Source of the DNA: Erysipelotrichaceae bacterium
Lineage (GTDB): Bacteria > Bacillota_I > Bacilli_A > Erysipelotrichales > Coprobacillaceae
Length of the DNA stretch: 36,637 bases
Reading direction: 5' to 3'
NCBI GenBank assembly: GCA_021201315.1
Contig: JAJQFG010000120.1
Location: forward strand, 18,016-54,652
In this document: piece after piece, positions 8,497-30,882 of the stretch
Numbering within the stretch: the first letter of the stretch is position 1
How the letters are laid out: every line of letters starts with the position of its first letter
The notes under the pieces: generated by a model
Databases searched by the model: none
Told to the model about the DNA's origin: nothing
The model's input: only the letters and a program-made list of their open reading frames with translations
Translations under genes and position numbers: made by a program

Positions 8497-8657
8497 CTTC
8501 AGCACTCCTTCCTGACACTATCTATTATATCATATTTCAGCCTTTAATACAACCAAAATATGTTGATTAAATCAATATATTTTAAAATGCACGTAGGCAT
8601 CTTTAAGGCAATAAAAAACTGCCCACTTTTTATTTGTAAGCAGTTTGTTTTTATTGA

Positions 8658-15063: not shown

Positions 15064-15090
15064 AAAAGTTCTCTTTATGAGAACTTTTTT
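15064..15090. terminator. bglA terminator, also the attL region
   Basis: AAAAGTTCTC (15064-15073), a 5-base loop and GAGAACTTTT (15079-15088) with T-run form a stem that works on both strands. Its 3' half is the att core of the downstream element. Confidence 0.85.
15073..15090. other. attL core
   Basis: CTTTATGAGAACTTTTTT is identical to 23928-23945. It lies in the bglA terminator loop and 3' arm. Confidence 0.8.
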
Positions 15091-15135
15091 AATTGAAAAT
15101 AATTTAGATAAAATATTGATAAATTCAATATAATT

Positions 15136-16314: not shown

Positions 16315-16377
16315 TTTAATTCACCCCTATAAATAAATTATTTCATTATGTTATAAGGACTTTTTGAGGTGTAGCAA

Positions 16378-16929: not shown

Positions 16930-16948
16930 TTGAACCACCTCATAAGCC

Positions 16949-17036
16949 ATTATAACATTTTACAGTGTGAAAACAATCTTAAATATTGTGAATTTTTAAA
17001 AAATATGTTGCAAGATTGTTTTCACTCTTGTATAAT
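16949..17036. promoter_or_regulatory. Divergent lysogeny-switch promoters and paired operator
   Basis: Rightward promoter: TTGCAA (17008-17013), 17 bp, TATAAT (17031-17036). Leftward promoter: TATAAT on the minus strand at 16954-16949 with a -35 near 16976-16971. A perfect inverted repeat GTGAAAACAATCTT (16967-16980) and AAGATTGTTTTCAC (17012-17025) overlaps both promoters. This is a classic arrangement for CI/Cro competition. Confidence 0.8.
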
Positions 17037-17092
17037 AGCATTAAACAAGAGTGATTTCAAGCTTGTTTAATATAAAAAAAGGTGGTGAAAAT

Positions 17093-17293
17093 ATGACAAC
17101 AAGTATAATTGTTAATCCTAACAAGTTAAACATGGCAATGGCTAATGCTTGTCTAAATGCTTATGAAGTATGTGAAAAGGCTAATGTTTCTTATTCATCA
17201 TTTCAAAGCATGACTAGAAATAAAAGTGTAAAGCCTAAAACAGTCGGCAAGATTGCCAAAGCCCTAAATTGTAAAGTTGAAGATCTTATTTGA
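17093..17293 (+). CDS. Cro-like HTH regulator
   Basis: A 66-residue protein starting at ATG 17093 with GGTGGTGA about 6 bases before; an upstream in-frame start at 17051 lacks a site. It holds one XRE-type helix-turn-helix (NACLNAYEVCEKANVSYSSFQ, then KPKTVGKIAKALNCKVEDL). It is the first gene of the rightward early operon, opposite the CI-like repressor, hence the Cro role. This is inferred from position and fold. Confidence 0.75.
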   Translation: MTTSIIVNPNKLNMAMANACLNAYEVCEKANVSYSSFQSMTRNKSVKPKTVGKIAKALNCKVEDLI

Positions 17294-17336
17294 TTATTAT
17301 TTATTATTGGATTCATGAAAGAGAGGTTATCACATT

Positions 17337-17522
17337 ATGAAGAAACGAGTTAGTAAAGATTACAGAGACGGCTACATTTTAGCTTTAGACTCATGTTTAA
17401 AAGAAGGCTTTATAATCAACCAGGAGAAGGAATTATTAATTAATTCGTTTGATAAGATGTATGAATTATCTCAAATTGTTGATTCTGTAAGCAATAAAGT
17501 GGACTTCTCAAAGCATGAATGA
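17337..17522 (+). CDS. Small hypothetical early protein
   Basis: 61 residues with a GAGAGG site 10 bases ahead of ATG 17337. It is charged and predicted helical (YRDGYILALDSCLKEGFIINQEKELLINSF), with no membrane segment. No family was recognised. It follows the Cro-like gene by 43 bp and is probably in the same operon. Confidence 0.55.
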   Translation: MKKRVSKDYRDGYILALDSCLKEGFIINQEKELLINSFDKMYELSQIVDSVSNKVDFSKHE

Positions 17523-17525
17523 TTA

Positions 17526-17547
17526 ATGAAGGTATTTGTACCTAAAA
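17526..17547. repeat. Diverged copy of the intergenic 21-bp element motif
   Basis: ATGAAGGTATTTGTACCTAA resembles the exact pair at 17922-17942 and 23441-23461. Here the centre GGTA-N4-TACC is palindromic. Confidence 0.5.
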
Positions 17548-17612
17548 AGTATTTTATGATTTTTACCCTTAAACCATGAGGGCGTGAGAGTCAAAGAAAG
17601 GAAGATAAGAGC

Positions 17613-17870
17613 ATGGAAAAGATGAACCAATACGAAAAAGCATATCAAGATGCTATTGGTACAAGAATCACTAAGGCTAAAGCTATTAGATTGAAATGTT
17701 TAGACTGTTGTGCATACCAGGCAAATGAAGTTAAATTATGTGTATGTACAGATTGCCCTTTATGGCGTTATCGTATGGGACATGAAGAAAGAGATACATT
17801 ATATTATGAGTATCAATCCAATAAAAAGCCTATGAGTGAAGAGGTTAAAGAACGATTGAGAAATTTATAA
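17613..17870 (+). CDS. Small cysteine-rich phage protein
   Basis: 85 residues. The centre KAIRLKCLDCCAYQANEVKL followed by CVCTDCPLWRYRMG is a conserved pattern in small proteins of Bacillota phages. The cysteines (C-x2-CC and C-x-C-x2-C) probably bind a metal such as zinc. Its function is not established. ATG 17613 follows GGAAGATAAGAGC; a second ATG three codons on is possible. It lies between two non-coding stretches that carry the repeated element motif. Confidence 0.7.
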   Translation: MEKMNQYEKAYQDAIGTRITKAKAIRLKCLDCCAYQANEVKLCVCTDCPLWRYRMGHEERDTLYYEYQSNKKPMSEEVKERLRNL

Positions 17871-17921
17871 AATTGTTGTTTTGAACGAAACCATTCAATG
17901 GAAATCACAAACAATTATAAT

Positions 17922-17942
17922 ATGAGTATTTATACCTAAAAT
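17922..17942. repeat. 21-bp intergenic element motif, copy A
   Basis: The sequence beginning ATGAGTATTTATACCTAAAA is identical over 21 bp to 23441-23461. It precedes a GCGTGAGGG string and the HTH gene. It could be an operator or a structured leader. Confidence 0.65.
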
Positions 17943-18023
17943 ATTATTTTGTGGCGTGAGGGCTAAATGGTTGACGTTTAAAACGCAAAAAAAGACCATT
18001 CTAAACGAAAGGAGTTGTTTATA

Positions 18024-18473
18024 TTGAGCGAAAAAGAGATTGAGGAACGCAAAGCAATACTTGAAGAACATAATAGACTATTAGATGAATATAATCGATT
18101 ATGTGATAACAAGAACTTATTAACGTCCCAGGAATGGCAACGCCAGGAAGAGAAAAAGAAGTCAATTTTATTGAAGATTGACAGATGCAAGGCAATGGAG
18201 CAATCATTTGATGATGATTCCAACAAATCAGATCCAAGCATTTTCGGATTGCAGATGCTGAAAATGGAAGAGGTACAAACCTTGTTGAATTGCAGCTATG
18301 AAAGCCTTAGAAATTTTATTGAGATAGGAATGTTAAAGCCCATAAAGACTGGTAAATGCTATATGTTTATTCAAAGTGATATTGCAGAATTTCAACAAAA
18401 GTATAAAGGTTATGATTTATCTAATTATCAAAAGGCGTTGCTAGTATACAATGAGGTATTAAGTAATGGCTAA
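18024..18473 (+). CDS. Coiled-coil plus helix-turn-helix protein (excisionase-like C-terminus)
   Basis: The best start is TTG 18024, 10 bases after GGAG; TTG 18015 is too close to that site. The 149 residues begin with a charged coiled coil (about 1-75), followed by a MerR/Xis-type winged-helix segment (LKMEEVQTLLNCSYESLRNF...GMLKPIKTGKCYMF...DIAEFQQKY). Excisionases and phage replication-region regulators have this kind of domain. It overlaps the next gene by 8 bp, so the two are translationally coupled. An Xis or a replication accessory role are both possible. Confidence 0.6.
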   Translation: MSEKEIEERKAILEEHNRLLDEYNRLCDNKNLLTSQEWQRQEEKKKSILLKIDRCKAMEQSFDDDSNKSDPSIFGLQMLKMEEVQTLLNCSYESLRNFIEIGMLKPIKTGKCYMFIQSDIAEFQQKYKGYDLSNYQKALLVYNEVLSNG

Positions 18474-19260
18474 TAGAAGAATGATTTCTTTAAGCGTTGT
18501 TGATAGTGATGTTTTTCTAAATATGCCACACTCAACGCAATCATTATATTTTCATTTATGTGTACGTGCTGATGATGACGGATTTATAGACAGTCCACAA
18601 AAAATATTGCGTATAGTAGGATGCAAAGATAAAGACTTAAATATATTGATTGATAATAAATTCGTTATTCCTTTTAAAAGTGGAGTTATTGTTATAGTTC
18701 ATTGGAAATTAAGCAATAGAATATCAGATAAAAGACGCATCCCCACATTATACAATGATGAATTACAAACATTGATTGAAAAAAATGGCGTATATTCAAT
18801 AAAAAATGACTTGAATACAGAATGTATACAAAATGTAAGCAAAGCGAATACAGAATGTATACAAAATGTAAGCAAAATGTCGGACAGTATAGTAAAGGAT
18901 AGTATAGTAAAGGATAGTATAGTAAAGAATATAAATAACACACCCACGAACCAGGAAGAAACCAAGAAAAAAATAATCAAACATAAATATGGAGAATTTA
19001 AACACGTTCTTTTATCAGATGATGAAATGAAACGTTTAAAAAATGATTTCCCTTTTTATGAAGATCTTATCAAGATTCTTGATGAATATTGCGAGACAAG
19101 TGGCAAGACCTATAAAAATTATAGTTTAGTTTTGAGAAAATGGGTACTTGATGAATATAACAAAAGTCATAAAGTGAACCATTACAATGATAACAGAGAG
19201 GATGCATACAATGAACCAGTTGAAACAGACACATCAACAGATGATTCAATCAAATTCTAA
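18466..19260 (+). CDS. Phage-type replication initiator (replisome organiser)
   Basis: 264 residues. The N-terminus MANRRMISLSVVDSDVFLNM, then STQSLYFHLCVRADDDGFID and PQKILRIVGC, is the winged-helix start typical of phage and satellite DnaD-like replisome organisers. The middle (about 115-155) is repetitive: NTECIQNVSKA twice, then DSIVK three times. The C-terminal part (about 180-250) is DnaD-domain-like. It should bind the element's origin and recruit the helicase loader encoded next, whose start overlaps its 3' end. The repeat tract may itself be the origin. Confidence 0.8.
   Translation: MANRRMISLSVVDSDVFLNMPHSTQSLYFHLCVRADDDGFIDSPQKILRIVGCKDKDLNILIDNKFVIPFKSGVIVIVHWKLSNRISDKRRIPTLYNDELQTLIEKNGVYSIKNDLNTECIQNVSKANTECIQNVSKMSDSIVKDSIVKDSIVKNINNTPTNQEETKKKIIKHKYGEFKHVLLSDDEMKRLKNDFPFYEDLIKILDEYCETSGKTYKNYSLVLRKWVLDEYNKSHKVNHYNDNREDAYNEPVETDTSTDDSIKF
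18813..18927. repeat. Tandem iterons inside the replication gene, candidate origin
   Basis: Two copies of a 33-bp unit (18813 and 18846; GAATACAGAATGTATACAAA core with a GTATAC palindrome) are followed by three copies of a 15-bp unit (18883-18927; AGTATAGTAAAG core). They are exact or nearly exact at DNA level. Phage origins of this type often lie within the initiator gene. Confidence 0.6.
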
Positions 19261-19984
19261 AGATATAAATATTCCTATTGTTGAAATTGTCGGCAAGTGT
19301 GATAAATGTGGCGATGATATAAGAAAGCTGACTTATCCTAATGGTGATACATCATTTATGTGCTTAGGCTGTATAGCAAAAGAAGAGGAACAAAAAGCAA
19401 TTGCTTATGTTAATAGTAAAGAGGGACTTGTTTCTTATAACAAAAAGAATTGTGGCTTTTCAAAAAGAGACGTTGATGCAGTCAACGAACCATACATAAC
19501 AGACGACGGAAACATAGATGCTTATAACATGGCTATGAAATATGCTAATAGATTCAATGAGGACACCTCAATAGGCTTTTATATTTATGGATCTGTTGGA
19601 GTTGGTAAAAGTCTTTTGGCAAAAAAGATAATGAAGATTGTTTTATATCGTGGATATAGTGCTTATATCACAAATATTATTCAATTAATGAACGATATAA
19701 AAAACGATCTAAATAATTTTAGCGATACAACATTAAGAAAATGTCAAAACGTTGATTTATTAGTGATTGATGATGTTGGAACAGAGAAAAATACAGATTT
19801 TGAAAATAGCAGAATGTTTTTAATAACCGATTATCGTTACGAGAATAAAAAACCCACTATATTCACGTCAAACTTAAAGCTTGATGAATTGACAACGAAA
19901 TATGATGAATTTGGGCGTATTTATTCAAGAATCAGAGGAGCTACCCAGGTATTAGAGATTAAGGGCAAAGATAGAAGAATTTAA
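19211..19984 (+). CDS. DnaC-like AAA+ helicase loader
   Basis: 257 residues from ATG 19211, which has AGAGAGGA before it; an in-frame ATG at 19187 lacks a site. The N-terminus has a four-Cys zinc motif (C30, C33, C51, C54). The AAA+ core shows Walker A GSVGVGKS (127-134), Walker B LLVIDD (183-188) and a sensor-like FTSNL. This is the DnaC/IstB-type loader layout, and it would load the host DnaB helicase at the element's origin. It overlaps the initiator gene by 50 bp. IstB of IS21 is excluded by the context. Confidence 0.85.
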   Translation: MNQLKQTHQQMIQSNSKDINIPIVEIVGKCDKCGDDIRKLTYPNGDTSFMCLGCIAKEEEQKAIAYVNSKEGLVSYNKKNCGFSKRDVDAVNEPYITDDGNIDAYNMAMKYANRFNEDTSIGFYIYGSVGVGKSLLAKKIMKIVLYRGYSAYITNIIQLMNDIKNDLNNFSDTTLRKCQNVDLLVIDDVGTEKNTDFENSRMFLITDYRYENKKPTIFTSNLKLDELTTKYDEFGRIYSRIRGATQVLEIKGKDRRI

Positions 19985-20203
19985 AGGAAGTGAAACCAGA
20001 TGAACAAAAGCCCACCAGGTTAATTATAAAACTACTGGCAATAGTTTAATTAAAGTGAATGTAAAAGTTTTTTATGCAAAAAAATAGCTTTAAGTACTAG
20101 CAATACTTAAAGCCGATTCATGAAGAGTGATTCACGAACCATTCAAGATGGCTACATTATATCACTCTTTCTCAAAAATTAAAAGAAGGAAGGATAATTT
20201 AAA
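19985..20203. other. Gene-free stretch with two hairpins
   Basis: GCTTTAAGTA (20087-20096) pairs with TACTTAAAGC (20104-20113). On the minus strand it is followed by ATTTTTTT, so it could stop leftward transcription. A second imperfect pairing joins GAGTGAT near 20120 with ATCACTC near 20160. No coding region was seen. Confidence 0.45.
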
Positions 20204-20311
20204 ATGTTAGATATTTATGATGTTAATTTTATGTTGCTGATAATTGTATTTTTCTTATTATTCGTTATTGGTTGTTTGTTGGTAGTACTAGAAGATAATG
20301 GCAATGAGTAA
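20204..20311 (+). CDS. 35-residue single-pass membrane peptide
   Basis: ATG 20204 follows a strong AAGGAAGG site. It encodes MLDIYDVNFM, then the hydrophobic stretch LLIIVFFLLFVIGCLLVV and an acidic tail LEDNGNE. One membrane helix is clear, with N-in/C-out or the reverse uncertain. It overlaps the next small gene (ATG 20304) by 8 bp. Its size and features fit phage-type small membrane proteins, for example exclusion or holin-like peptides. No function can be assigned. Confidence 0.55.
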   Translation: MLDIYDVNFMLLIIVFFLLFVIGCLLVVLEDNGNE

Positions 20312-20507
20312 GAATAATATTATCAAAACTGTTAAAAACGCAATTAATCAAAAGGTTATTGATGAAAATTATAATATGACATATTTACAAATGAAACAGA
20401 TCATCAAAGCATCAAAGAGTACATTTGATTTATGTTCATATTGTTTTACATATGGATATATTCAAGGCATGAGAGCTGAAGAAAGCAAGAAATCACTTAG
20501 TGATTAG
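20304..20507 (+). CDS. Small hypothetical protein
   Basis: 67 residues from ATG 20304 (ATG 20298 is two codons upstream). It is basic at the start (MSKNNIIKTVKNAINQKV) and helical. The second half, STFDLCSYCFTYGYIQGMRAEE, has a C-x2-C and a region typical of small phage early proteins. No family was recognised. It overlaps the membrane peptide gene and is followed by another small ORF after 14 bp, with GAGGGAGTG as the latter's site. Confidence 0.5.
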   Translation: MSKNNIIKTVKNAINQKVIDENYNMTYLQMKQIIKASKSTFDLCSYCFTYGYIQGMRAEESKKSLSD

Positions 20508-20521
20508 AGGGAGTGTAAGCA

Positions 20522-20749
20522 ATGGAAAAATTAGACATAGTGGAAATAGAAATAACTATTAATGATTTAAAAAATGTAAATGCAAGTTTATGGTTGATTC
20601 AAGGGAATTATAGTGAAGATATGTATAATGCAGTTGGATACCCTGGTAGAGAATTAACTTATGATGGCTTAGGTGGAATTATAAAGGCTAATAAGATGTT
20701 GCTAGACAAGTTAGAGAGATTGTTTTATGGAGTAGATCAAAATGAATGA
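20522..20749 (+). CDS. Small hypothetical protein
   Basis: 75 residues, with GGGAGTG about 8 bases ahead of ATG 20522. It is acidic and helical (NDLKNVNASLWLIQGNYSED), with no membrane segment or Cys motif. No family was recognised. Its end overlaps the next gene by 8 bp, so the two are probably translated together. Confidence 0.55.
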   Translation: MEKLDIVEIEITINDLKNVNASLWLIQGNYSEDMYNAVGYPGRELTYDGLGGIIKANKMLLDKLERLFYGVDQNE

Positions 20750-20963
20750 TTCTGTTTTAAATGAATTATTTTGTCTATGGTGCAATGAAGGTAGTTATGA
20801 ACCACGCAAGGAAGAACTCGATGCACTGGATAGAATAAGAACTTATGCAGAAGGTGAGGCAATAATGGAAGATATTTATAATTATGTTCTTGTAATGCAG
20901 AAAAGAGCATATCAAGAAGGATTTAAACGAGGCTTTCACCTGGCAAGCGAGATTATCAAGTAA
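20742..20963 (+). CDS. Small hypothetical protein
   Basis: 73 residues starting inside the previous gene. Acidic and helical (LCNEGSYEPRKEELDALDRI is approximate in style; the visible motif is EPRKEELDALDRIRTYAEGE), ending YQEGFKRGFHLASEIIK. This ending resembles small phage proteins with a C-terminal amphipathic helix. No function assigned. It is the last gene before a terminator. Confidence 0.5.
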   Translation: MNDSVLNELFCLWCNEGSYEPRKEELDALDRIRTYAEGEAIMEDIYNYVLVMQKRAYQEGFKRGFHLASEIIK

Positions 20964-21410
20964 ATGTTATGTTGCAGTACAGAGGGCTAAACAAAAAAAG
21001 CCCCTGGAACTGTACATATACCAGGAGTTTTTTTGAAATTTTAGAGAGATATGAAGATTTAATACTCACTTAACAAATATTACAGTGATAATACTATAAC
21101 AATAGCTAGGATAATACCATGTTATAGCTAGTCATATTGTATCATTTAAAAGTCAAAAAGAAAAGACTTGTAAAAGATACAAGCCTAAACTCTTAAGGAA
21201 TAGAAAAACTGAAATATCATAACCAAATAACAAATACTAGTTTTTTCTAGATTCAATAGACAATTTTATTCTAGCACTTTATTTATTAAAAATAAAGACG
21301 ATTTTTAAAAAGGAAGGTGATGCCCTATGGTGGTAAGGTTGAGTTGCTACATTTAAAGCAACAAATTAAATAAGATCTAAACAAAATATATACAGAAAGG
21401 ACGATAAAAT
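20964..21410. other. Long gene-free stretch before the capsid-type genes
   Basis: It contains a terminator (21001-21034), then imperfect direct repeats GATAATACTATAACA/GATAATACCATGTTAT with inverted TAGCTA blocks (about 21089-21135). A 17-codon ORF at 21320-21373 (MPYGGKVELLHLKQQIK) has an AAGGAAGG site and could be a remnant or leader peptide. The stretch separates early from late-type genes and may hold a late promoter. Confidence 0.45.
21001..21034 (+). terminator. Terminator of the early gene cluster
   Basis: CCCCTGG pairs with CCAGGAG (one mismatch) around a 14-base loop, followed by seven T. Confidence 0.6.
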
Positions 21411-21845
21411 ATGGCAACTAAAATTACAATAGAATTTGATGATGCAAAAACGATTGCTAAAAATCACGGATTAACGCCAGGTGGTAGTGCTCAAAAATTC
21501 TTCACTAATGAATTATTGAGAGTAAGTGATAAGTATACACCTATGGAAGTTGGTGTATTAAAAAATTCGGCTACGATTGCATTAGATGGTACATTTATTC
21601 AATACAATACACCATACGCAAGATACCATTGGTATGGTAAGCTAATGGTTGATCAAAATACTGGTAGTAGTTACGCACCTAAAGACACGCAAAAAGTTTT
21701 AACAACAAAAGATATGACTTATTATGAACCTGGATCAAGTGTCCCATCACCATTAAGAGGCTCATATTGGGTACAAAGAGCATATAATGATAATAAAGAT
21801 ACTTTATTAGATTCGTTAGAAAAATTTATTAATGGAAATGATTAA
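21411..21845 (+). CDS. Phage minor capsid protein
   Basis: 144 residues after AGAAAGGACG. The sequence ARYHWYGKLMVDQNTGSSYA and the C-terminal PLRGSYWVQRAYNDNKDTLLDSLEKF match the phage minor capsid family found between head and tail genes. That family normally acts as a head completion or tail-joining protein. Here no portal, head or tail gene accompanies it. In a satellite it could modify helper particles; in a reduced prophage it would be a leftover. The frame and start site look intact. Confidence 0.7.
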   Translation: MATKITIEFDDAKTIAKNHGLTPGGSAQKFFTNELLRVSDKYTPMEVGVLKNSATIALDGTFIQYNTPYARYHWYGKLMVDQNTGSSYAPKDTQKVLTTKDMTYYEPGSSVPSPLRGSYWVQRAYNDNKDTLLDSLEKFINGND

Positions 21846-21872
21846 ACATTACAGAAAAGGAGATAAAAACAG

Positions 21873-22520
21873 ATGTTAGAACAATTAAAATCAACTTTAA
21901 ATATTTTTGACCATATTGTTGGTGAGGCTTATCAAAATTATGAACATGAAAAGCAAGAAATAGTTAATGAAACCAAATGGACGGCAAAAGCAAAAGAAGA
22001 GGCTACGCAAGAGGCACTTAAAAAATTCGAAAAAATTAAAGATAGAGAGTTACGAGATGCTTTTAAGTCTGTAAACAGTCAATTTGATGATGCTTATAAA
22101 AAATTAAATGAGATTGTTGCAGAAAGACCACCAGAAGAGGTAAGTCAAACAATTCAAGCTATTAGTATTTGTGGAAAATATATTACTGATTTCGAAGCTG
22201 AAAACATTATAGAATCATATAAGGATAATTATATTTGTTGTAAAGCAGTTACAAGCATTTTCCATAGCAATGATATTTGTAAAAACAAAACATTGTTAGG
22301 TGCTGACTATGTAAAGAATGAACTAGACGGATTAAAAGACGGCATTACAACATTCTTATATGGTTATGGTACTGGCAAAAATAACAATTTATCAGCAGCC
22401 TCTTATTTAAGTGAAGAAATAAATCCAATAAATGGGACAATAGCAAAAATACAACCATTTTTTAATCATGATTTTGTTGTTAGAAGTAATTTAGATGATA
22501 GATTAGACAATCAACGATAA
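21873..22520 (+). CDS. Hypothetical protein with N-terminal coiled coil
   Basis: 215 residues, with AAAAGGAG before ATG 21873. The first 90 residues are charged and strongly helical (KAKEEATQEALKKFEKIKD). The rest is mixed, with four Cys (ISICGKY, YICCKAV, NDICKNK) and a Gly/Asn stretch (YGYGTGKNNNL). No family was recognised. It is 27 bp downstream of the minor capsid gene and ends at a terminator, so the two form a two-gene unit. A structural or scaffold-like role is only a guess from position. Confidence 0.55.
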   Translation: MLEQLKSTLNIFDHIVGEAYQNYEHEKQEIVNETKWTAKAKEEATQEALKKFEKIKDRELRDAFKSVNSQFDDAYKKLNEIVAERPPEEVSQTIQAISICGKYITDFEAENIIESYKDNYICCKAVTSIFHSNDICKNKTLLGADYVKNELDGLKDGITTFLYGYGTGKNNNLSAASYLSEEINPINGTIAKIQPFFNHDFVVRSNLDDRLDNQR

Positions 22521-22596
22521 ATCATTTTTAATATATTGGTGGTAAGTAAACACCAATTAAATATAAACGTGCTCATGTTAAAATTAAGTAATAGAA

Positions 22597-22634
22597 AAGT
22601 CTTATCAATCAATACCTGGTAAGGCTTTTTTTTG
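22597..22634 (+). terminator. Terminator after the capsid-type pair
   Basis: AAGTCTTATC (22597-22606) pairs with GGTAAGGCTT (22618-22627) using two G-T pairs, followed by eight or more T. Confidence 0.75.
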
Positions 22635-22716
22635 TTATGCTTTTAATTAATAACAAATCAATTATTATGCTTTTATGATATAATTAATCAAGATATAAAA
22701 GAGGTGTAGCTGATAC

Positions 22717-22911
22717 ATGAACAATGATAATTTAAAACCATACAAAAAGGGAGAAGAACGAGCTAAAATCAATGGGCGTAAAGGTGGATTGAAAAGCGTT
22801 GAAGTTAGAAGAAAAAAGAAAGCTATGAAAGAGTTAGCAAAAGCATTTAATACAATAGCTTTAGAAGACGTCGAAATTATTATTGATGATTTTACATTGA
22901 ACCAACATTAA
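22717..22911 (+). CDS. Small KGG-motif protein, small-terminase-like N-terminus
   Basis: 64 residues, with GAGGTG 11 bases upstream. It reads EERAKINGRKGGLKSVEVRRKKKAMKELAKAF, the basic KGG segment seen at the start of phage small terminase and related packaging proteins. Those proteins are usually 120-180 residues, so this one is short and may be truncated after TLNQH. A small terminase is a hallmark of PICI satellites, but this short form cannot prove that role. It may also be a free-standing DNA-binding peptide. Confidence 0.45.
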   Translation: MNNDNLKPYKKGEERAKINGRKGGLKSVEVRRKKKAMKELAKAFNTIALEDVEIIIDDFTLNQH

Positions 22912-22957
22912 AGCGTGAGTGAACCCACGAAAAAATGGAAATATTGAAATAATAAAA

Positions 22958-23021
22958 GCCTCTGGAATGAATCGAAATAATGAAATGTGTATAGTTATGC
23001 GTTTCGATTCCAAATAGAGGC
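22958..23021. other. Long imperfect hairpin between two element genes
   Basis: GCCTCT (22958-22963) pairs with AGAGGC (23016-23021), and GGAAT...AATCGAAA with TTTCGATTCC. There is no T-run directly after it. It lies in the leader of the sigma-like gene and may be a structured RNA or protein-binding site. Confidence 0.5.
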
Positions 23022-23033
23022 AATTAAAAAAAG

Positions 23034-23402
23034 GTGGATTGTATGACTGACAATGAAAAGAGAAAGTTTTTAGAATTGTTTTATCATTATTATGATGAAT
23101 ATATAACCTTAAATGAATCATTAGAGGGCTTGAAATGTGCAGATCCAACAAAAGAAGTAAATCATAATGGACATAAAATAACGCTAACAGAGAGGATACA
23201 TCAAAGAGATAAAGCATACATGAGAATGATAAAGCTTATGAAGTTTATTGATGAAAAAAGTAATTGTGATATTTATATTGGTACCAGATATTTATCTATT
23301 CCACCAAAAAGAACATATAAAGAAGTTGCAGAGGCTTTAAACGTTAGTATTTCAACTGTTGCTAGAAAGTTAGATGAAGGTATAAAGAAACTGGATATTT
23401 AA
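23034..23402 (+). CDS. Phage-type sigma-like regulator (region 4 HTH)
   Basis: 122 residues. The best start is ATG 23034 or 23043, after AAAAAGGTGG. The C-terminal PPKRTYKEVAEALNVSISTVARKLDEGIKKL is a sigma-70 region-4-like helix-turn-helix, as in phage late-gene regulators of the ArpU/DUF1492 kind. The N-terminal half is helical and charged with several aromatic residues. It is the last gene of the element and might activate element or helper late promoters. Evidence for that role is position and fold only. Confidence 0.65.
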   Translation: MDCMTDNEKRKFLELFYHYYDEYITLNESLEGLKCADPTKEVNHNGHKITLTERIHQRDKAYMRMIKLMKFIDEKSNCDIYIGTRYLSIPPKRTYKEVAEALNVSISTVARKLDEGIKKLDI

Positions 23403-23440
23403 GGCGTATATGCTTGCAGTTTTGAAACAATTCGTTAGAC

Positions 23441-23461
23441 ATGAGTATTTATACCTAAAAT
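23441..23461. repeat. 21-bp intergenic element motif, copy B
   Basis: It is identical to 17922-17942 and followed 39 bp later by GAGTCAAAGAAAG, as in the diverged copy near 17526. Confidence 0.65.
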
Positions 23462-23622
23462 CAATTTGATGATTGAAGAACGCTTATATATTGATTCCTG
23501 GAGTCAAAGAAAGCATTTTAAGAGATGATTAGATGTTAATGTTTATGATGATGTTTATATTCTTGTATATCCTGGTAATGAATAACAATATCAATTTCTA
23601 ATATGAAAATATGATCTAAAAT

Positions 23623-23658
23623 AAAAGTCCTGCTAGAAAGGAAAATAGCAAGACTTTT
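23623..23658. terminator. Bidirectional terminator near the right end of the element
   Basis: AAAAGTCCTGCTA pairs with TAGCAAGACTTTT, one mismatch, with A/T runs outside both arms. Confidence 0.65.
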
Positions 23659-23780
23659 AAAAAATATGAAATTTAAGATGGGATTCATTGAAATATGCGT
23701 TTTTTTGAAATATATAAGAAATTATTGCAGATGTATTATAACTGATAATGATTCATAAATCAAATGGGCTACATTTTCAA

Positions 23781-23825
23781 CCACATTTCACCCACAAAAA
23801 AGAGCCACCCACATCAACCCACATC
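23781..23825. promoter_or_regulatory. Probable right integrase arm-type sites
   Basis: Four close repeats, CCACATTT (23781), CACCCACA (23789), CACCCACATC (23806) and AACCCACATC (23816), lie about 100 bp inside attR. Matching motifs near attL support a role in integrase binding. Confidence 0.45.
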
Positions 23826-23927
23826 AAAAATAAAGAAAAGAACGTTCATTGAAAATTTCAATAAACGCCCTTTTTATCAGTCCTATAACAAATGAAATAA
23901 AATTGAAAAAAATTAATATAAAAATCA

Positions 23928-23945
23928 CTTTATGAGAACTTTTTT
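23928..23945. other. attR core
   Basis: The copy of the 15073-15090 core sits just before the end of hxlR. The left arm of the terminator hairpin is missing here, so hxlR lost its original terminator on integration. Confidence 0.8.
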
Positions 23946-23948
23946 TGT

Positions 23949-24287
23949 TTAATCTGCATGATCTTTTAATTTGCTACCCCATATAGCTAGTTCAGTTAAA
24001 ATTGGGATTAAAGAACGAACAGCATCGGTTATTTCGTATTCTACTCTAATTGGAACCTCTGTATACTCAGTTCTTTTAATCAGACCATCTTCTTCAAGCT
24101 CTTTTAATGATTTAGCAAGCATAGTGTTAGAAATACCATTCATCTTTCTTTTTAAATCATTATATCTTGTCGCTCCATCATTTGAAAGTGAGCATATAAT
24201 CGACATCTTCCATCTTCCTCCAATAGCACTCATTGCTTTTTGCAATGGACATCCAATTGTACATGGACAAACATGTGTATTAGCCAT
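23949..24287 (-). CDS. HxlR-family transcriptional regulator
   Basis: 112 residues from ATG 24287 with TAAAGGAGG before it. It has the HxlR winged helix: N-terminal Cys cluster (CPCTIGCPLQKAM), IGGRWKMSIICSL, YNDLKRKMNGISNTMLAKSL, LEEDGLIKRTEY and VEYEIT. Family members sense thiols, aldehydes, quinones or other electrophiles, often through an N-terminal Cys. It is divergent from the flavodoxin-led operon and probably controls it. Its terminator was altered by the element integrated just downstream. Confidence 0.88.
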   Translation of the reverse strand: MANTHVCPCTIGCPLQKAMSAIGGRWKMSIICSLSNDGATRYNDLKRKMNGISNTMLAKSLKELEEDGLIKRTEYTEVPIRVEYEITDAVRSLIPILTELAIWGSKLKDHAD

Positions 24288-24343: not shown

Positions 24344-24371
24344 TTGACATATTTTTTTATATTACTATAAT
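24344..24371 (+). promoter_or_regulatory. Promoter of the flavodoxin-led operon
   Basis: TTGACA (24344-24349), a 16-bp spacer and TATAAT (24366-24371) lie in the divergent region between hxlR and the operon, where an HxlR dimer would bind. No clear operator palindrome could be fixed. Confidence 0.7.
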
Positions 24372-24442
24372 AGTATTATAACAAGTAGTAAAATAAGAGT
24401 AAAGCTTTTTTTAAGAGTTAAAAGATATAGGAGGAATTTATT

Positions 24443-24862
24443 ATGAACGAAGTAAAGGTGGCTGTACGTTATTTTTCTAAATCTGGTAATACTAAAAAAC
24501 TTGCTGATGAAATTGCCAAAACAACTAATTGTTGTGCAAAACAGATTCCAACACCAGTCAATGATGAGATAGATATTCTTTTCTTGGGTGCATCTGTTTA
24601 TTATGGAGGGATAAGCTCTGAAGTAAAGAAATATATTCAATCTTTAAATGGTGGTAAAATTGGTAAGGTTGTAGTTTTTTCAACATCAGCTCTGGCAGAA
24701 AGAGCATTTCCCCAAATTCAAAAATTATTAGAAGATAAGAATATTCAAGTTGATAAAAGAAATTTTTATTGTCGTGGTGAATTTACAGTACTTCATAAAG
24801 GACGTCCTAATCAAAAGGATTTGGATGAAGTAAGAAAATTTGTAACAGAAATAATTGACTAG
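24443..24862 (+). CDS. Flavodoxin-fold protein
   Basis: 139 residues after ATAGGAGGAATT. The N-terminal FMN phosphate loop is present (YFSKSGNTKKLADEI, about 10-24). The second loop (FLGASVYYGGISSEVKKYI, about 47-65) and VVFSTSALAERAFPQIQKLL complete a flavodoxin-domain pattern. It is a cytoplasmic electron carrier or small quinone/flavin reductase. As first gene of the operon opposite HxlR it may supply electrons to an operon enzyme or defend against electrophiles. The partner is not known. Confidence 0.82.
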   Translation: MNEVKVAVRYFSKSGNTKKLADEIAKTTNCCAKQIPTPVNDEIDILFLGASVYYGGISSEVKKYIQSLNGGKIGKVVVFSTSALAERAFPQIQKLLEDKNIQVDKRNFYCRGEFTVLHKGRPNQKDLDEVRKFVTEIID

Positions 24863-24871
24863 CGAATCTAT

Positions 24872-26218
24872 ATGGATTATTTTATTAATTTTATTGTAAA
24901 TTTATTTGTTTTCATGTCTGATTTTGCTTCGCTTTTTTCTAAAATTGGGTTAATTGATTATAAATGTTTTGATAATTCAGATAATAGTAAAGAACTATAT
25001 GTATTGTTAGTTGGTTATAATGGTGCAAGAAATACGGGTGCTGATGTGCGTGTAGCTGATATTGCTAGGCAACTTCAACAGCATTTTGGTAAAGATCATA
25101 TACATATTTCCATTATGACATTAGATGAAGACAATATGCGTTGCTATTTTGATTCAAGTGTACAGTTGATTCCCTTCAACACAATATTTTTTATAGATTT
25201 GTTTAAGGCTTGTTGTGGCAATCAGGCAGTTATTTTATGTGAGGGATCTACACTTAAGAGTAAATTTGCTAATGCTCTTACACTCTATTTTTGTGAAGCA
25301 GCTGGTATTATGAAAAAACAACATAAACCTTGTATTGCATATGGCTCTGAAGCTGGTGAGATGGATTCATTCCTAAAACGTACAGTAAAGAAACTTTGTG
25401 CTGATACATATTTTATTGCCAGAACTCAAAATTCATTAGACTTGATTCAACAATTAGGACTTAAAGGGCATCTTGGAACAGATGCGGCATGGCAGTTTGA
25501 TAGTTCTTCTTATGAACAATGGGCTATTACGCAATTACGTGAATCAGGTTGGGACAGTGTTTCTCCGCTTTTAGGTATAGCACCAATTAATCCGTTTTGG
25601 TGGCCAGTTAAACCATCAATAAGTAAGTGGTTAAAGTCAAAAATAACAGGTGATTATTCATTGCAGTTTCAATTATGGTATTTCTTTAGCTGGTCTAAGC
25701 AACGTAAGCAACTATTTGATGATTATTTAGATAAAATAGCATTAGCGGTCAATGATTTTGCAACAAAGTACGCTTGTCATGTTTTTATTATGGGTATGGA
25801 AAGGCTTGATGCCGATGCATGCAACAAACTGCAAGCTAAGATTACAACACCTACATCTATCTTTCTCTCATCTGATTATGATGGTTATAAGATGGCTGCT
25901 ATACTAAGAAAACTATCTGTTTTAGTGACTTCAAGGTATCATGCACAAGTACTATCTATGTATAATAAAGTACCTAGCGTTGCCATTTCGATGGATGAGC
26001 GTTTGGATAATATTATGCAAGATATGGACTTGAGTGAGCATCAGCTTCTTTATGTTGATGATAAAAATCTAGCTTCATCATTGAAAAATGCTTTAGAATA
26101 CGTGTGGTTTAATCAAAAACAAATTAAAGATACAATGGAACTAAATCTCATACATTATCAAAATGAATTAGATAAAATGGGTAATTTTCTAATGGATTAT
26201 TTAAACTCATTTGAATAA
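24872..26218 (+). CDS. Polysaccharide pyruvyl transferase family protein
   Basis: 448 residues. An N-terminal hydrophobic segment (about 3-27) suggests membrane attachment. The family signature follows: LLVGYNGARNTGADVRVADI (about 46-65), then ILCEGSTLKSKFANALTLY, AYGSEAGEM, and TSRYHAQVLSMYNKVPSVAIS near the C-terminus with the conserved Arg-x-His. Family members of the CsaB type transfer pyruvyl groups to sugars from PEP; many relatives are uncharacterised. No good Shine-Dalgarno is seen, and the start is 9 bp after the previous gene, so translational coupling is likely. Its substrate in this operon is unknown. Confidence 0.75.
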   Translation: MDYFINFIVNLFVFMSDFASLFSKIGLIDYKCFDNSDNSKELYVLLVGYNGARNTGADVRVADIARQLQQHFGKDHIHISIMTLDEDNMRCYFDSSVQLIPFNTIFFIDLFKACCGNQAVILCEGSTLKSKFANALTLYFCEAAGIMKKQHKPCIAYGSEAGEMDSFLKRTVKKLCADTYFIARTQNSLDLIQQLGLKGHLGTDAAWQFDSSSYEQWAITQLRESGWDSVSPLLGIAPINPFWWPVKPSISKWLKSKITGDYSLQFQLWYFFSWSKQRKQLFDDYLDKIALAVNDFATKYACHVFIMGMERLDADACNKLQAKITTPTSIFLSSDYDGYKMAAILRKLSVLVTSRYHAQVLSMYNKVPSVAISMDERLDNIMQDMDLSEHQLLYVDDKNLASSLKNALEYVWFNQKQIKDTMELNLIHYQNELDKMGNFLMDYLNSFE

Positions 26219-26264
26219 TTAATATATCTGTTTCAATTATGACTTAGAAATGGAGGAATCATTA

Positions 26265-29027
26265 ATGCATCATATATTAATTACTGGTATAACAGGATTT
26301 TTGGGAACGGAAATCGTTTCTGAAATTATGCAAACAAGTGATGATATTGTTTATGGATTGGTTAGAGCTCAATCTATTTTGGAGGCTACTAACAACCTTT
26401 CTACACTTTGGTATAATAGAAATGAATTGACAGACAATATAGGTAGTCGTATTTTTCCTGTACTTGGTGATATCACCAAAAGTGATCTTGGTTTAAACAA
26501 GGATGATCAAGATTTACTAATTCATAATACTGATTATATTATCCATACTGCTGCTATTGTTAATATCAACAACACGCGAAAACAATTTTGGGATGTTAAT
26601 GTGGAAGGAACAAAAAATGTTTTAGATTTTGCTAAACGTATACAAACTAATCATTCATTAAAACGTTTTTCTCATGTATCTACGGCTTATGTAGCAGGAA
26701 TGAGAAGTGGGCTTATTCAAGAAAATTCACTTATTGATAAAGGGTTTTCTAGCTTGTATGAGCAAAGCAAGTTTGAGGCTGAATGTCTCGTATTACAAGC
26801 CAAAGAAGAAATACCAGTATCAATCTTTCGTCCTGGTCAAATTGTTGGAGATTCCAAGACAGGTTATGTTAAGAATTTTAATACACTTTATTATCCATTA
26901 AAGTTATATATAAAGAAACAATTGCGCATTTTTCCTATTCGCAAGTCTATGCATGTTAATATGATACCAGTAGACTATGTTGCGCACGCTATTGTGCAAA
27001 TCACTTATTCCAATTTAGCTGTAGGAAAAACATTTCATCTAACAACACCATCTTCTATGCAACCAACTGTGGCTGAATTAATCGATGCTGTTAGAAATTG
27101 GACAAATAAAAATCTTTCTATTCAATTACCAAAACCATTGTTTTTCCCATTACCATTTCTAAGTCAAATAGGTGCTACTTATAATTTATCCCAACATCAA
27201 TCAACAAAAAAGAGTATGCTAAGAAATATGCTCTCATTAGCACCTTATTTTACGGAAAACAAAATATATGATACCACAAATACCGAAAGCATTATAGGAA
27301 CTTATTCTCTTGATTGGAAGGACTATTTACCTCATATTTTAGATTATGCTGTAAGTAAAAACTTTTTGAATCATAATAGTCGAACTGTTTTTGAACAAGC
27401 TCATTTTGTTTTAAATAGACATCATAAAATCACTTATTATGATGTAAGTGAAGATGGTATTCAAGAAAACAGTGCAACATATGTTAATGATAGTATTGAA
27501 GAAACACTTAAGGCATTACAAGCACTAGGTATAGGTCCTAATAGTAAAGTGGCTATTAGTGGCATTAATAGCGTTAATTATTTCATTATTGACAATGCTA
27601 TTGGCTTATCAGGAGCTACAAGTGTACCTTTATACTATACCACTCCTGCTAAAGAGTTAGATGAATTGTTGAAAAAAAGTCAGGCAAGTTGTTTCTTTGT
27701 AGGAGATGTACGCATCTTATCTCAAATCAATAAGATGAATTTTAATGGCAGGATTATTTCTTTTACGAAAAATGCACCTATAATAGTGGATTCCCGATTA
27801 ATGCTTTGGGATGAATTTATCTCACTAGGAAAAACAAGAAATGTTATAGATGTACAAGTCTTTTATCAAGATATAGCTACACTTCGTTATACTTCAGGTA
27901 CGACTGGTAATTCCAAAAGTGTTGCTTTTACACATGGGCAGTTAAAGTGGATGGCAGAAACGATGGCCTCTTTGCTAAGTTATAAAAGTCGAAGCAAACA
28001 AGCAACATATCTTTCATTTTTACCAATGAGCCATGTGGTAGAGGGCATTTTAGGAGCTTATACACCTTATTATTTAGGAGTACCAGTGTCTCTTTATTTT
28101 CTTAATGATTTTGATATGGTTGCTAAAACACTACCTAAAGTAAAACCAACAATTTTCTTTTCAATTCCTAGATTTTATGAAAAAGTTTGGAATCAATTAG
28201 CAGATAATAGATTGGGTAAAATATATATCAATACTAAAAATGCTATGCCAAAACATATATTACGTCCAATTTTAAAATATATGCTTTTAAAAAAAGCAGG
28301 ATTAGATCATTGTGATCAGCTTATTGTTGGTTCTGCTCCAGTAAGTCAAAAACTTTTGGAGAATTTTAGAAAATTAGGCATCGAAATTCATAATGCCTAT
28401 GGCTTAACAGAAGCACCTTTGATTACTTTAAATCGTCTTGGTGAAAATGATATTACAACAGTAGGACCACCACTTCCACAAACAAATGTCACTTTAGCAG
28501 ATGATGGTGAAATATTAGTAGAGGGTCCTCAGGTTGCGATGATGTATGATGGACGTACTTCTTCATGTCTACATACAGGAGATTTAGGTATAATAACGCA
28601 AAAAGGTCATCTTCAAATTGTTGGTCGTAAAAAAGAAATTCTTATTAACTCTTATGGTAAAAACATTAATCTGCAAAAGGTAGAAACATTATTAAGAGAT
28701 ATTCCAGGTATTAGCGAAGCTATGTTAGTAGGAGAACAAAGACCTTATTGTGTTGCACTTTTATGGTTAGAGGATGAAGAGTCTATTTTAGATAAAGAAA
28801 CATTGATAAATGCTATTCAATCTGTGAATGCTCAGCTGTCTCATCCAGAACAAGTGAAACGATATGCTCTCATGTCTGATCCTTTGAAAATATCTACAGG
28901 TGAGCTTACGCCAAATTTAAAATTACGACGAAATAACATTATAAAACTTCATCAACAAACAATTGATGGGTTATATGCTTCAGAAGTTACTCTGGTTGGA
29001 AATGTTGTTTTTGTAGGTACACTATAA
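26265..29027 (+). CDS. Fused SDR thioester-reductase-type and AMP-forming acyl ligase
   Basis: 920 residues. GGAGG at 26252-26256 sets the start at ATG 26265. The N-terminal half is an extended short-chain reductase of the thioester/fatty acyl reductase type: GITGFLG NAD(P) loop (8-14), VSTAYVAG, and active-site Tyr165-x3-Lys169. The C-terminal half is an adenylating enzyme: YTSGTTGNSK (542-551), HNAYGLTE, and GRKKEILINSYGKN with Lys799. There is no phosphopantetheine carrier domain between. The pair suggests activation of a carboxylic acid and reduction to aldehyde or alcohol. The order (reductase first) is the reverse of classic carboxylic acid reductases. Confidence 0.85.
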   Translation: MHHILITGITGFLGTEIVSEIMQTSDDIVYGLVRAQSILEATNNLSTLWYNRNELTDNIGSRIFPVLGDITKSDLGLNKDDQDLLIHNTDYIIHTAAIVNINNTRKQFWDVNVEGTKNVLDFAKRIQTNHSLKRFSHVSTAYVAGMRSGLIQENSLIDKGFSSLYEQSKFEAECLVLQAKEEIPVSIFRPGQIVGDSKTGYVKNFNTLYYPLKLYIKKQLRIFPIRKSMHVNMIPVDYVAHAIVQITYSNLAVGKTFHLTTPSSMQPTVAELIDAVRNWTNKNLSIQLPKPLFFPLPFLSQIGATYNLSQHQSTKKSMLRNMLSLAPYFTENKIYDTTNTESIIGTYSLDWKDYLPHILDYAVSKNFLNHNSRTVFEQAHFVLNRHHKITYYDVSEDGIQENSATYVNDSIEETLKALQALGIGPNSKVAISGINSVNYFIIDNAIGLSGATSVPLYYTTPAKELDELLKKSQASCFFVGDVRILSQINKMNFNGRIISFTKNAPIIVDSRLMLWDEFISLGKTRNVIDVQVFYQDIATLRYTSGTTGNSKSVAFTHGQLKWMAETMASLLSYKSRSKQATYLSFLPMSHVVEGILGAYTPYYLGVPVSLYFLNDFDMVAKTLPKVKPTIFFSIPRFYEKVWNQLADNRLGKIYINTKNAMPKHILRPILKYMLLKKAGLDHCDQLIVGSAPVSQKLLENFRKLGIEIHNAYGLTEAPLITLNRLGENDITTVGPPLPQTNVTLADDGEILVEGPQVAMMYDGRTSSCLHTGDLGIITQKGHLQIVGRKKEILINSYGKNINLQKVETLLRDIPGISEAMLVGEQRPYCVALLWLEDEESILDKETLINAIQSVNAQLSHPEQVKRYALMSDPLKISTGELTPNLKLRRNNIIKLHQQTIDGLYASEVTLVGNVVFVGTL

Positions 29028-29578
29028 TGAAACGTTTATTATATCATATTTTATCCAGTAAATTTGGTGCATATCTGGAAATAAAAATATTGATGAAACA
29101 AACTGCCAAAGTTTTTGGTGTCAAGAGTCCAACAGGTATTGGTTTCTCCTTGTCAAAGTTATTAAAAGCATATGCTCAATTAACGACAGATATGTCTTTG
29201 AAATTTATTGAAAGCAATCAAGATAGAAATCAACTCCAACAGAATTTATATCACATGGCTTATCGTTTAGGAAATGATTTGCGATGGTGGTTAAGGCCAC
29301 AAAATAATCTAGATTGTTTTTCTATCATTGAGATGCTTTATCGTAATATTGAAATTTCATTATGTGAACAATCAGAAACAATCTGTGTACATCAATGTTA
29401 TTTTAGTGATTTTTATACACCAGAAGTTTGTTCTATTATATCTGCTATTGATCAAGGCATTTTTGCAGGTGTTTACCAAGGTGGTACACTATCATTTTAT
29501 AGGCGTATTACTGAAGAATATGAAAAATGCGAAGCAGAATTTATCTTAGATGATTCTAAATATAATGAGAAAGGATGA
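29027..29578 (+). CDS. ATC-hydrolase-like protein (L-2-amino-thiazoline-4-carboxylate hydrolase family)
   Basis: 183 residues overlapping the previous gene by one base (TAATG). The C-terminal half has TICVHQCYFSDFYTPEVCSI, IDQGIFAGVYQGGTLSFYRR and EKCEAEFILDD, the layout of the small alpha/beta family that includes ATC hydrolase, with Cys, Asp and a late Cys-x-Glu/Asp-Phe. Catalysis in this operon is unproven; many family members have unknown substrates. The N-terminal half is helical. The match is by pattern and is only moderate. Confidence 0.45.
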   Translation: MKRLLYHILSSKFGAYLEIKILMKQTAKVFGVKSPTGIGFSLSKLLKAYAQLTTDMSLKFIESNQDRNQLQQNLYHMAYRLGNDLRWWLRPQNNLDCFSIIEMLYRNIEISLCEQSETICVHQCYFSDFYTPEVCSIISAIDQGIFAGVYQGGTLSFYRRITEEYEKCEAEFILDDSKYNEKG

Positions 29579-29586
29579 GATGTTAA

Positions 29587-30882
29587 ATGAAAAATGCAAT
29601 TGTAATAGGTTCAGGAGCAGGTGGCGCTATGATGGCTAAGGAACTGCAAGGTCATTTTCAAGTAACGATATTAGAAGCAGGAAATGCATTTAAACCATTT
29701 TCTTTTTCTGTTAATAATCTTGGAAAGTTACGTAAAACAGGAATGTTTCTTGATGAGCGTATGATTTCCTTCTTGTTTCCATCTATGCGTGTACAAAAAG
29801 CTTCATCTGATATGATAATGGTACATGGTGAATGTACTGGTGGCACTACAACACTTGCTACTGGTAGTGCATTACGCTGCGATGAGAGTTTAATAAACAT
29901 AGGTATTCATTTAGATGATGAATTTGAGGAACTTGCTCAGGAAATCCCTTTATCTACTGACCATCAGCAATATTGGTCTACTCAGATTAAAGAACTTTTT
30001 GATGTTTGTAAACAATTAGGCTTTAATCCAGCGCCTACAACCAAGTTAATAGATTTTAAACGTTGTGTACGATGTGGACATTGTGTGTTAGGATGTCAAA
30101 CAGGTGCTAAATGGGATAGCCGACAATTGTTAACAGAAAGTATAAGTAAAGGTGCTATTTTAAAAACAAATTGTAAAGTAACTAAGTTAGGTATAGATCA
30201 TAACACCAATACTGTAAACACCATTTATGTAAAAGAGCATGGCAAACAAATAACATATCATGCTGATCTTATTGTTTTAGCAGCTGGAGGTTTTGGAACA
30301 CCAATTGTTTTAGAAAACTCTGGTATTGAATGTGAAAGTTCATTATTTGTCGATCCTGTTCTTTGTGTAGCAGCACCTTATTCTGGTGTAGAAACAAATC
30401 ATCAGATTGTTATGCCTTTTCTCATGCAAAGAGATGGCTATATGCTATCTCCTTATATGGATTATCTTAGTTATTTCTTTAATAAATCCTGGCGTTTTCC
30501 ATCTAAAAATATACTCAGTATGATGATTAAACTTTCAGACTCTAGCTCGGGTGCTAGTTATAATAAAGGGGTAGAAAAAGAGTTAACATCAAAAGATCAA
30601 GAAAGATTAAAATTTGCCGTATCTGATTGCAAAACAATTTTTTCAAAAATGGATATTAAAGAAGAAGATATATTTCTTGGCACACTTAATGCAGGTCATC
30701 CAGGTGGTATGTTACCATTGACAACTGAAGAAGCAGAGACTTTCCACAATCAACGTTTACCTAAAAACTTGTATATTGCTGATGCAACAATTTTACCACA
30801 TTCTATGGGAAATCCACCTATTTGGACTATCATGGCTTTATCCAAACGTATCGCTAAAGTATGTACTGAAACCTTTATATAA
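29587..30882 (+). CDS. GMC-family FAD-dependent oxidoreductase
   Basis: 431 residues after GAGAAAGGATG. The FAD-binding start (AIVIGSGAGGAMMAKELQGH...ILEAG), GECTGGTTTLATGSAL and the C-terminal LYIADATILPHSMGNPPIWT (His and Asn of the GMC active site) are present. RCVRCGHCVLGC (159-170) is the four-Cys motif found in long-chain alcohol oxidase and cholesterol-oxidase-like members. It probably oxidises an alcohol, or reduces an aldehyde, handled by the upstream reductase-ligase. It is the last gene of the operon. Confidence 0.85.
   Translation: MKNAIVIGSGAGGAMMAKELQGHFQVTILEAGNAFKPFSFSVNNLGKLRKTGMFLDERMISFLFPSMRVQKASSDMIMVHGECTGGTTTLATGSALRCDESLINIGIHLDDEFEELAQEIPLSTDHQQYWSTQIKELFDVCKQLGFNPAPTTKLIDFKRCVRCGHCVLGCQTGAKWDSRQLLTESISKGAILKTNCKVTKLGIDHNTNTVNTIYVKEHGKQITYHADLIVLAAGGFGTPIVLENSGIECESSLFVDPVLCVAAPYSGVETNHQIVMPFLMQRDGYMLSPYMDYLSYFFNKSWRFPSKNILSMMIKLSDSSSGASYNKGVEKELTSKDQERLKFAVSDCKTIFSKMDIKEEDIFLGTLNAGHPGGMLPLTTEEAETFHNQRLPKNLYIADATILPHSMGNPPIWTIMALSKRIAKVCTETFI

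Follow-up and report, generated by a model that had tools for sequence, protein, structure and literature searches.

An operon consisting of a three-gene core plus accessory genes was identified in a 36,637-nucleotide stretch of DNA from an Erysipelotrichaceae bacterium (assembly GCA_021201315.1, contig JAJQFG010000120.1, positions 18,016 to 54,652 of the forward strand). This whole stretch is called the window here, and operon coordinates are counted from its first position. The core encodes a fusion of a fatty acyl-CoA reductase (FAR)-like domain with an acyl-CoA synthetase (ACS)-like ligase, a 183-amino-acid (aa) protein with a predicted TRAPPC3/V4R fold, and a flavoenzyme of the GMC family. 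Beyond the window genome, it was found at 20 loci in 19 genomes of Bacillota and Coriobacteriia. The core is probably distributed horizontally and probably makes a reduced long-chain (fatty) acid derivative in anaerobic gut bacteria.

Operon layout and conservation

The initial annotation described an operon facing a divergent HxlR-type gene. All six genes were confirmed at the coordinates below, and the assignments hold in Pfam and NCBIfam searches for all but the 183-aa protein.

23949..24287, minus strand: HxlR-family regulator with N-terminal cysteines (CPCTIGCP), divergent from the operon; PF01638
24344..24371, plus strand: promoter-like site, TTGACA-16-TATAAT, 12/12 match to the sigma-70 type; from the sequence
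24354-24384: 15-nucleotide inverted repeat overlapping the promoter-like site, candidate HxlR operator; from the sequence
24443..24862, plus strand: flavodoxin, 139 aa, proposed redox partner; PF12641, 43 bits
24872..26218, plus strand: pyruvyl transferase of the PS_pyruv_trans family, 448 aa, accessory; PF04230, 52.9 bits
26250..29027, plus strand: FAR-ACS fusion, 925 aa; PF07993, PF00501, and PF23562
29027..29578, plus strand: TRAPPC3/V4R-fold protein, 183 aa (earlier label, ATC-hydrolase-like); alignment and predicted model
29587..30882, plus strand: GMC flavoenzyme, 431 aa; PF00732

The gaps among the five co-directional genes are 9, 31, -1, and 8 bp, and these genes are thus likely to form a single transcription unit. 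The promoter-like site and the overlapping inverted repeat lie between the HxlR and flavodoxin genes, and this intergenic block is recognizable in L060 and in the Clostridiales locus L015, whose fusion is 74% identical to that of the window (L numbers designate the loci and G numbers the genomes surveyed). In comparison with the nearest species, all of the genes are under purifying selection (dN/dS, 0.10 to 0.24).

A scan of GTDB contigs gave 19 loci (43% to 91% identity) in Erysipelotrichaceae, Clostridiales, an Oscillibacter metagenome-assembled genome (MAG), Atopobiaceae, Eggerthellaceae, and Coriobacteriaceae. Eighteen of these have the core order fusion-small protein-GMC enzyme, the contig of L024 stopping within the fusion gene. 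Together with L048 (the second copy in G721) and L044 (in G973), they make up the 20 other loci with sufficient contig, all of which keep this order. The adjacency and constant order of the core genes in these loci, as well as the purifying selection on all genes, argue for more than chance proximity. Thus, the gene-neighborhood survey that had been suggested initially found the neighbors conserved, with a core common to two phyla. The proposed linked set, in which a carrier-less fusion that activates and reduces a carboxyl group is joined by a flavodoxin and a flavoenzyme of the alcohol type, is supported. The five-gene set as originally drawn is retained as far as its three core genes are concerned (20 of 20 loci), but the flavodoxin, pyruvyl transferase, and HxlR genes are accessory.

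Carriers are sparse. There are two true carriers among 295 genomes of the window's order, and the window genome is the sole carrier among the sampled genomes of its phylum (392) and class (296). The operon is present in 1 of 200 genomes of a carrier Clostridiales family and in 6 of 298 Coriobacteriia. In Coriobacteriia, G973 aside, it is reduced to the bare three-gene core with changing neighbors and with no HxlR or DtxR regulators beside it. Many relatives come from metagenomes of the ruminant jejunum or ileum. Searches of viral contigs, phages, and plasmids gave no close relative of either the fusion or the GMC enzyme, and a Photobacterium GMC homologue (26% identity) has none of the other operon genes beside it. 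The Clostridiales MAG G721 has its two core copies, L017 and L048, on different contigs; a similar predicted secreted protein is encoded near both, and esterase domains were confirmed for that of L017.

The initial annotation knew of no described pathway with this gene set, and we likewise found no description of the combination in the literature searched, many subscription journals being outside its scope. The operon is apparently an undescribed but conserved combination of known kinds of enzymes.

Reductase-ligase fusion

The Pfam domains of the fusion are, in order, NAD_binding_4 (PF07993; 195 bits, residues 11 to 248), AMP-binding (PF00501; 171 bits, residues 421 to 766), and AMP-binding_C_3 (PF23562). 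They define an N-terminal NAD(P)-dependent reductase (residues ~11 to 370) and a C-terminal long-chain-type AMP-ligase (residues ~400 to 915). Pfam matched neither a carrier domain nor an acyltransferase domain in the fusion. In the absence of a carrier domain, the intermediate is likely to be a CoA ester. The ligase half gave its top scores with long-chain acyl-CoA ligases in profile searches. The reductase half is nearest to the structures of MxaA, carboxylic acid reductase (CAR), and fatty acyl-CoA reductase, MxaA being the best PDB sequence match, and the fusion scored 149.9 bits against the CAR model NF041592 (cutoff, 1300). Among its relatives (43% to 91% identical), the catalytic motifs TGxxGFLG and YxxxK of the reductase and TSGTTGxxK, TGD, and the TPNLK lysine of the ligase are retained in 17 of 17 sequences, with only conservative substitutions in individual rows.

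The domain order had been described as reversed. The reductase indeed precedes the ligase and a carrier is lacking, but the order is not unprecedented. ElbD of Myxococcus xanthus, which is required for ether lipids, already has a FAR domain at its N terminus before the ACS domain, along with carrier and acyltransferase domains (PMC9131029). As far as could be found, it is the carrier-less, stand-alone FAR-ACS form with these partners that is new.

TRAPPC3/V4R-fold protein

No Pfam family matched the 183-aa window protein, even at an E value of 10, and only 3 of the 19 family members touched the ATC_hydrolase model (PF14196; best E value, 0.013). An AlphaFold model built from the alignment of 19 relatives (mean predicted local distance difference test [pLDDT] score, 93.8) was most similar to TRAPPC3/Bet3 with covalently bound palmitate (6aq3; Z score, 12.3; root mean square deviation, 2.9 over 142 residues; Foldseek and VIA-align). 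Further matches were the phenol sensors DmpR, MopR, and PoxR (Z score, ~10), followed by the V4R protein MJ1460 and H-NOX. The initial ATC-hydrolase-like label was therefore rejected, in view of the missing match, the weak scores of the relatives, and the fold; a hydrolase role has no support. L005, which had matched the small protein weakly, turned out to be an unrelated sequence.

According to this confident model, the protein has the TRAPPC3/V4R fold and probably binds a hydrophobic ligand. The internal cavities of this fold take palmitic acid or phenols, and a zinc site formed by Cys and Glu residues ties the sheet to the helix (PMC10933270, PMC7264223, PMC2253512). Residues C124, C135, and C168 are invariant in the alignment; in the model they sit where a strand ends, a helix starts, and a strand starts, which makes a metal site plausible.

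GMC flavoenzyme

The GMC enzyme matches PF00732 (GMC_oxred_N; 68.3 bits, threshold 23). Its C-terminal domain stays below the threshold of PF05199 (13.6 bits versus 24.6), with only the last segment matching. The ferredoxin-type motif CxxCxxCxxxC (Cys160, Cys163, Cys166, and Cys170), the active-site residues His371 and Asn409, and the AGHPGG and GNPP motifs are invariant in 18 of 18 GMC sequences. The predicted structure, which is of moderate confidence (pLDDT, 72), is nearest to membrane fructose dehydrogenases and also matches flavin adenine dinucleotide (FAD)-glucose dehydrogenase; relatives of the enzyme include cholesterol and pyridoxine/aryl alcohol oxidases. In fructose dehydrogenase and FAD-glucose dehydrogenase, an iron-sulfur (Fe-S) cluster lies between the FAD and a cytochrome. 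No signal peptide was evident in the window enzyme, and no cytochrome gene was found in the operon.

A four-Cys GMC alcohol oxidase had been proposed for this gene. The family and the four invariant cysteines stand, but oxidase activity is unlikely because the cysteines form a ferredoxin-type motif and the gut lineages are taken to be anaerobic. An Fe-S dehydrogenase that passes electrons to flavodoxin appears likelier than an O2-using enzyme.

A seventh match in Coriobacteriia (G760) was not accepted as an operon carrier. It is a divergent lone GMC homologue (L045, 8219-9649) with the same Cys-rich motif, located two genes from an aldehyde-ferredoxin-oxidoreductase-like gene (by eye); the fusion and the small protein are absent.

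Accessory genes and regulators

The flavodoxin, pyruvyl transferase, and HxlR genes are present in most close Bacillota as variable accessories. The HxlR gene (98.2 bits to PF01638; threshold, 20.8) lies beside the operon in L014, L015, L017, L029, L048, and L060, and the flavodoxin gene (Flavodoxin_3) is conserved in L014, L015, L029, L048, and L060. The pyruvyl transferase, which scored 90.4 bits against the CsaB equivalog TIGR03609 (cutoff, 213.1), adjoins the fusion in L013, L014, L015, and L029 and directly precedes it in G973 (L044). Eight of 13 carriers, including several incomplete MAGs, showed no such gene.

In each of the five Clostridiales loci that are long enough (L014, 13666-14064; L015, 13645-14049; L017, 6922-7323; L029, 6802-7191 and after its GMC gene; L048, 65-484), the next gene after that for the GMC enzyme is of the DtxR type (iron-dependent repressor). 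It possibly provides metal control of an Fe-S operon. L014 and L029 also have an upstream cation-efflux gene. Genes resembling flavodoxin or EFR1 (by eye) lie upstream of the core in L030 (5507-6061) and L017 (246-1073), two loci that lack the operon flavodoxin; a redox partner may have been recruited independently there, or the placement may be fortuitous.

Evolutionary history and genomic site

The trees of the fusion and of the GMC enzyme both separate a Bacillota clade, to which Oscillibacter is sister, from a Coriobacteriia clade, in which G973 is basal; bootstrap support is 100% for each clade. In both trees, the window and a species of the same genus are nested among Clostridiales sequences, the finer branches being partly unresolved. 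Of four species in the window's genus, two carry the operon, and the site is the same in both, with a GH1 glucosidase gene on one side and an RpiR-type gene on the other. At the operon-free site, the flanking genes abut in G042 and are separated only by an open reading frame (ORF) of 123 aa in G009. Given the Clostridiales relatives, gain by transfer appears likelier than repeated loss.

In the window genome only, a phage-like integrative element (~15,073-23,945) adjoins the operon. It encodes a tyrosine integrase (15136-16314, minus strand), an XRE-like repressor, a DnaC/IstB-like ATPase, and a minor capsid protein, and its flanks carry an 18-bp repeat, CTTTATGAGAACTTTTTT (at 15073 and at 23928), which lies in the GH1 gene's terminator. 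G042, G009, and G072 lack the element at this site. Mobilization of the operon by the neighboring integrase is not supported, since G072 has the operon without the element and no repeat was found at the right end of the operon. Transposase-like genes are present upstream of the GH1 gene at 6748-8505 and 11742-13250 (IS66-type by eye; 502-aa DDE-type ORF).

Proposed pathway and alternatives

We infer the substrate, the product, and the direction of the pathway from the protein families, motifs, and predicted folds. In the reading that we tentatively prefer, the set activates an acid, reduces it, and yields a modified lipid. As its protein families suggest, the fusion would adenylate the acid and form the acyl-CoA with its ligase half, and would then use NAD(P)H in its reductase half to give an aldehyde or alcohol. 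The TRAPPC3/V4R-fold protein would bind the hydrophobic substrate, intermediate, or product, either as an allosteric subunit or in a carrier or chaperone role. The motif and fold of the GMC flavoenzyme suggest that it could interconvert alcohol and carbonyl groups on the same molecule, with a [4Fe-4S] cluster relaying electrons to or from flavodoxin (encoded in the operon in most Bacillota) or a housekeeping carrier. The oxidizing and reducing enzymes would then act at different positions, or the GMC enzyme would run as a reductase. The pyruvyl transferase of most Bacillota and one Coriobacteriia genome probably modifies a linked glycan or lipid head group. Expression would be controlled by HxlR and, in Clostridiales, also by the DtxR-type metal regulator.

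This pathway is consistent with the core order (20 of 20), the shared tree split, the retained catalytic motifs, the likeness to long-chain ligases, the ElbD precedent, the palmitate-binding fold, the Fe-S motif, the operon flavodoxin, and the dN/dS values. Several points weigh against it. A fatty substrate, like a fatty or lipid product, is presumed, and other members of the AMP-ligases and V4R domains take aromatic acids and phenols. The presence of reducing and oxidizing enzymes in one set needs explanation, and the GMC model is only moderately confident. The AGPS-type family PF02913, an ether-lipid partner, is absent from the window genome, and PlsA-type proteins (PF09989) occur in 15 of 15 genomes, with or without the operon. 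These findings argue against a simple ether-lipid operon, and the plasmalogen pathway was rejected, the PlsA-type family being found irrespective of the operon.

A more specific proposal, which we consider doubtful, would make the V4R-fold protein the acyl carrier that the fusion lacks, its cavity holding the fatty chain while the ligase, reductase, and Fe-S GMC enzyme act, and would amount to carrier-protein-free synthesis of reduced lipids in anaerobes. Covalent attachment at C97 is conceivable for the close Bacillota alone, and an S-acylation carrier role through this residue was otherwise rejected: C97 is missing in Coriobacteriia and L025, so that a general carrier of this type would have to hold the chain noncovalently or use another cysteine.

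An unlikely alternative to the fatty substrate is another gut acid (bile or aromatic/phenolic), whose carboxyl group would be reduced, whose ring would be bound by the V4R-fold protein, as DmpR and MopR bind phenols, and whose ring or side-chain alcohol would be oxidized by the GMC enzyme. The V4R phenol sensors are close structural matches, and the GMC relatives include oxidases of cholesterol and aryl alcohols. However, the ligase half, with its AMP-binding_C_3 domain, is best matched by long-chain fatty acid ligases, the top structural match is TRAPPC3 with palmitate, and the origin of many relatives in the ruminant jejunum or ileum, although suggestive, says little about the substrate. It seems less probable still that the pathway runs in reverse as alcohol salvage, the GMC enzyme oxidizing a fatty alcohol to the aldehyde and handing the electrons to flavodoxin, and the fusion taking the aldehyde through acyl-CoA to the acid. 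GMC enzymes normally oxidize alcohols, and the divergent homologue in G760 lies near an aldehyde-ferredoxin-oxidoreductase-like gene, but that locus has neither the fusion nor the small protein, and the reactions of adenylating ligases and of fatty acyl-CoA reductases, powered by ATP and NADPH, go from acid to alcohol.

The accessory regulators bring in a stress or detoxification operon, in which HxlR-type electrophile or redox sensors and DtxR-type metal sensors would switch on the removal of a toxic acid or aldehyde. The HxlR family membership and N-terminal cysteines, the DtxR-type gene right after the GMC gene in five Clostridiales loci, and the cation-efflux gene in L014 and L029 would fit. 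However, acid activation and reduction would be a costly detoxification, and the Coriobacteriia core has neither regulator alongside, which places the regulators outside the core function; we regard this explanation as improbable. Ordinary genes lying together by chance, with no joint pathway, would account for families that are each common individually and for accessory genes that come and go. This is hardly credible for the same three genes in the same order in two phyla, with congruent main clades of the fusion and GMC enzyme, and is already contradicted by the neighborhood survey.

If the preferred lipid pathway is correct, a gene set that gut Bacillota and Coriobacteriia have in common, and that most of their relatives lack, probably makes an overlooked lipid-type metabolite. 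It would give a stand-alone bacterial TRAPPC3/V4R-fold protein an enzymatic setting and would add a soluble, flavodoxin-linked Fe-S GMC dehydrogenase and an ElbD-like fusion working without a carrier domain. The three-gene core (~4.6 kb) is small enough for testing in laboratory strains.

Comparison with known systems

The elb operon of M. xanthus is similar in that a FAR-like reductase precedes a long-chain acyl-CoA ligase in one protein (PMC9131029). However, the acyl-carrier and AGPAT-like acyltransferase domains of ElbD are missing from the window fusion, the elb operon has no GMC or V4R-fold partners, and the window genome has no AGPS-type gene. CAR and the terminal reductases of nonribosomal peptide synthetases (MxaA) share the adenylation and thioester-reductase chemistry, but CAR is arranged as adenylation-carrier-reductase with a phosphopantetheine site, whereas in the window fusion the reductase precedes the adenylation domain and no carrier is present.

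The window GMC enzyme resembles fructose dehydrogenase and FAD-glucose dehydrogenase as a flavoenzyme with cysteines for an Fe-S cluster, which is predicted in its case. It differs from them in its length of 431 aa, its ferredoxin-type motif, its operon flavodoxin, and the lack of an evident signal peptide and of a nearby cytochrome subunit; no counterpart of their small subunit was found in the operon, where the adjacent small protein has the predicted TRAPPC3/V4R fold. The pyruvyl transferase belongs to the same PS_pyruv_trans family as CsaB-type enzymes, but the 448-aa protein scores well under the CsaB cutoff and has no cell-wall gene neighbors. The small protein shares its predicted fold with the TRAPPC3/V4R proteins DmpR, MopR, PoxR, and Thor-TRAPPC3 (Z scores, 8 to 12), and its invariant cysteines may form a metal site like the one that joins sheet and helix in V4R proteins (PMC10933270, PMC7264223). 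Unlike those proteins, it is a stand-alone protein of 183 aa with no Pfam match, is not fused to a regulator, and is encoded at a fixed position between two enzyme genes.

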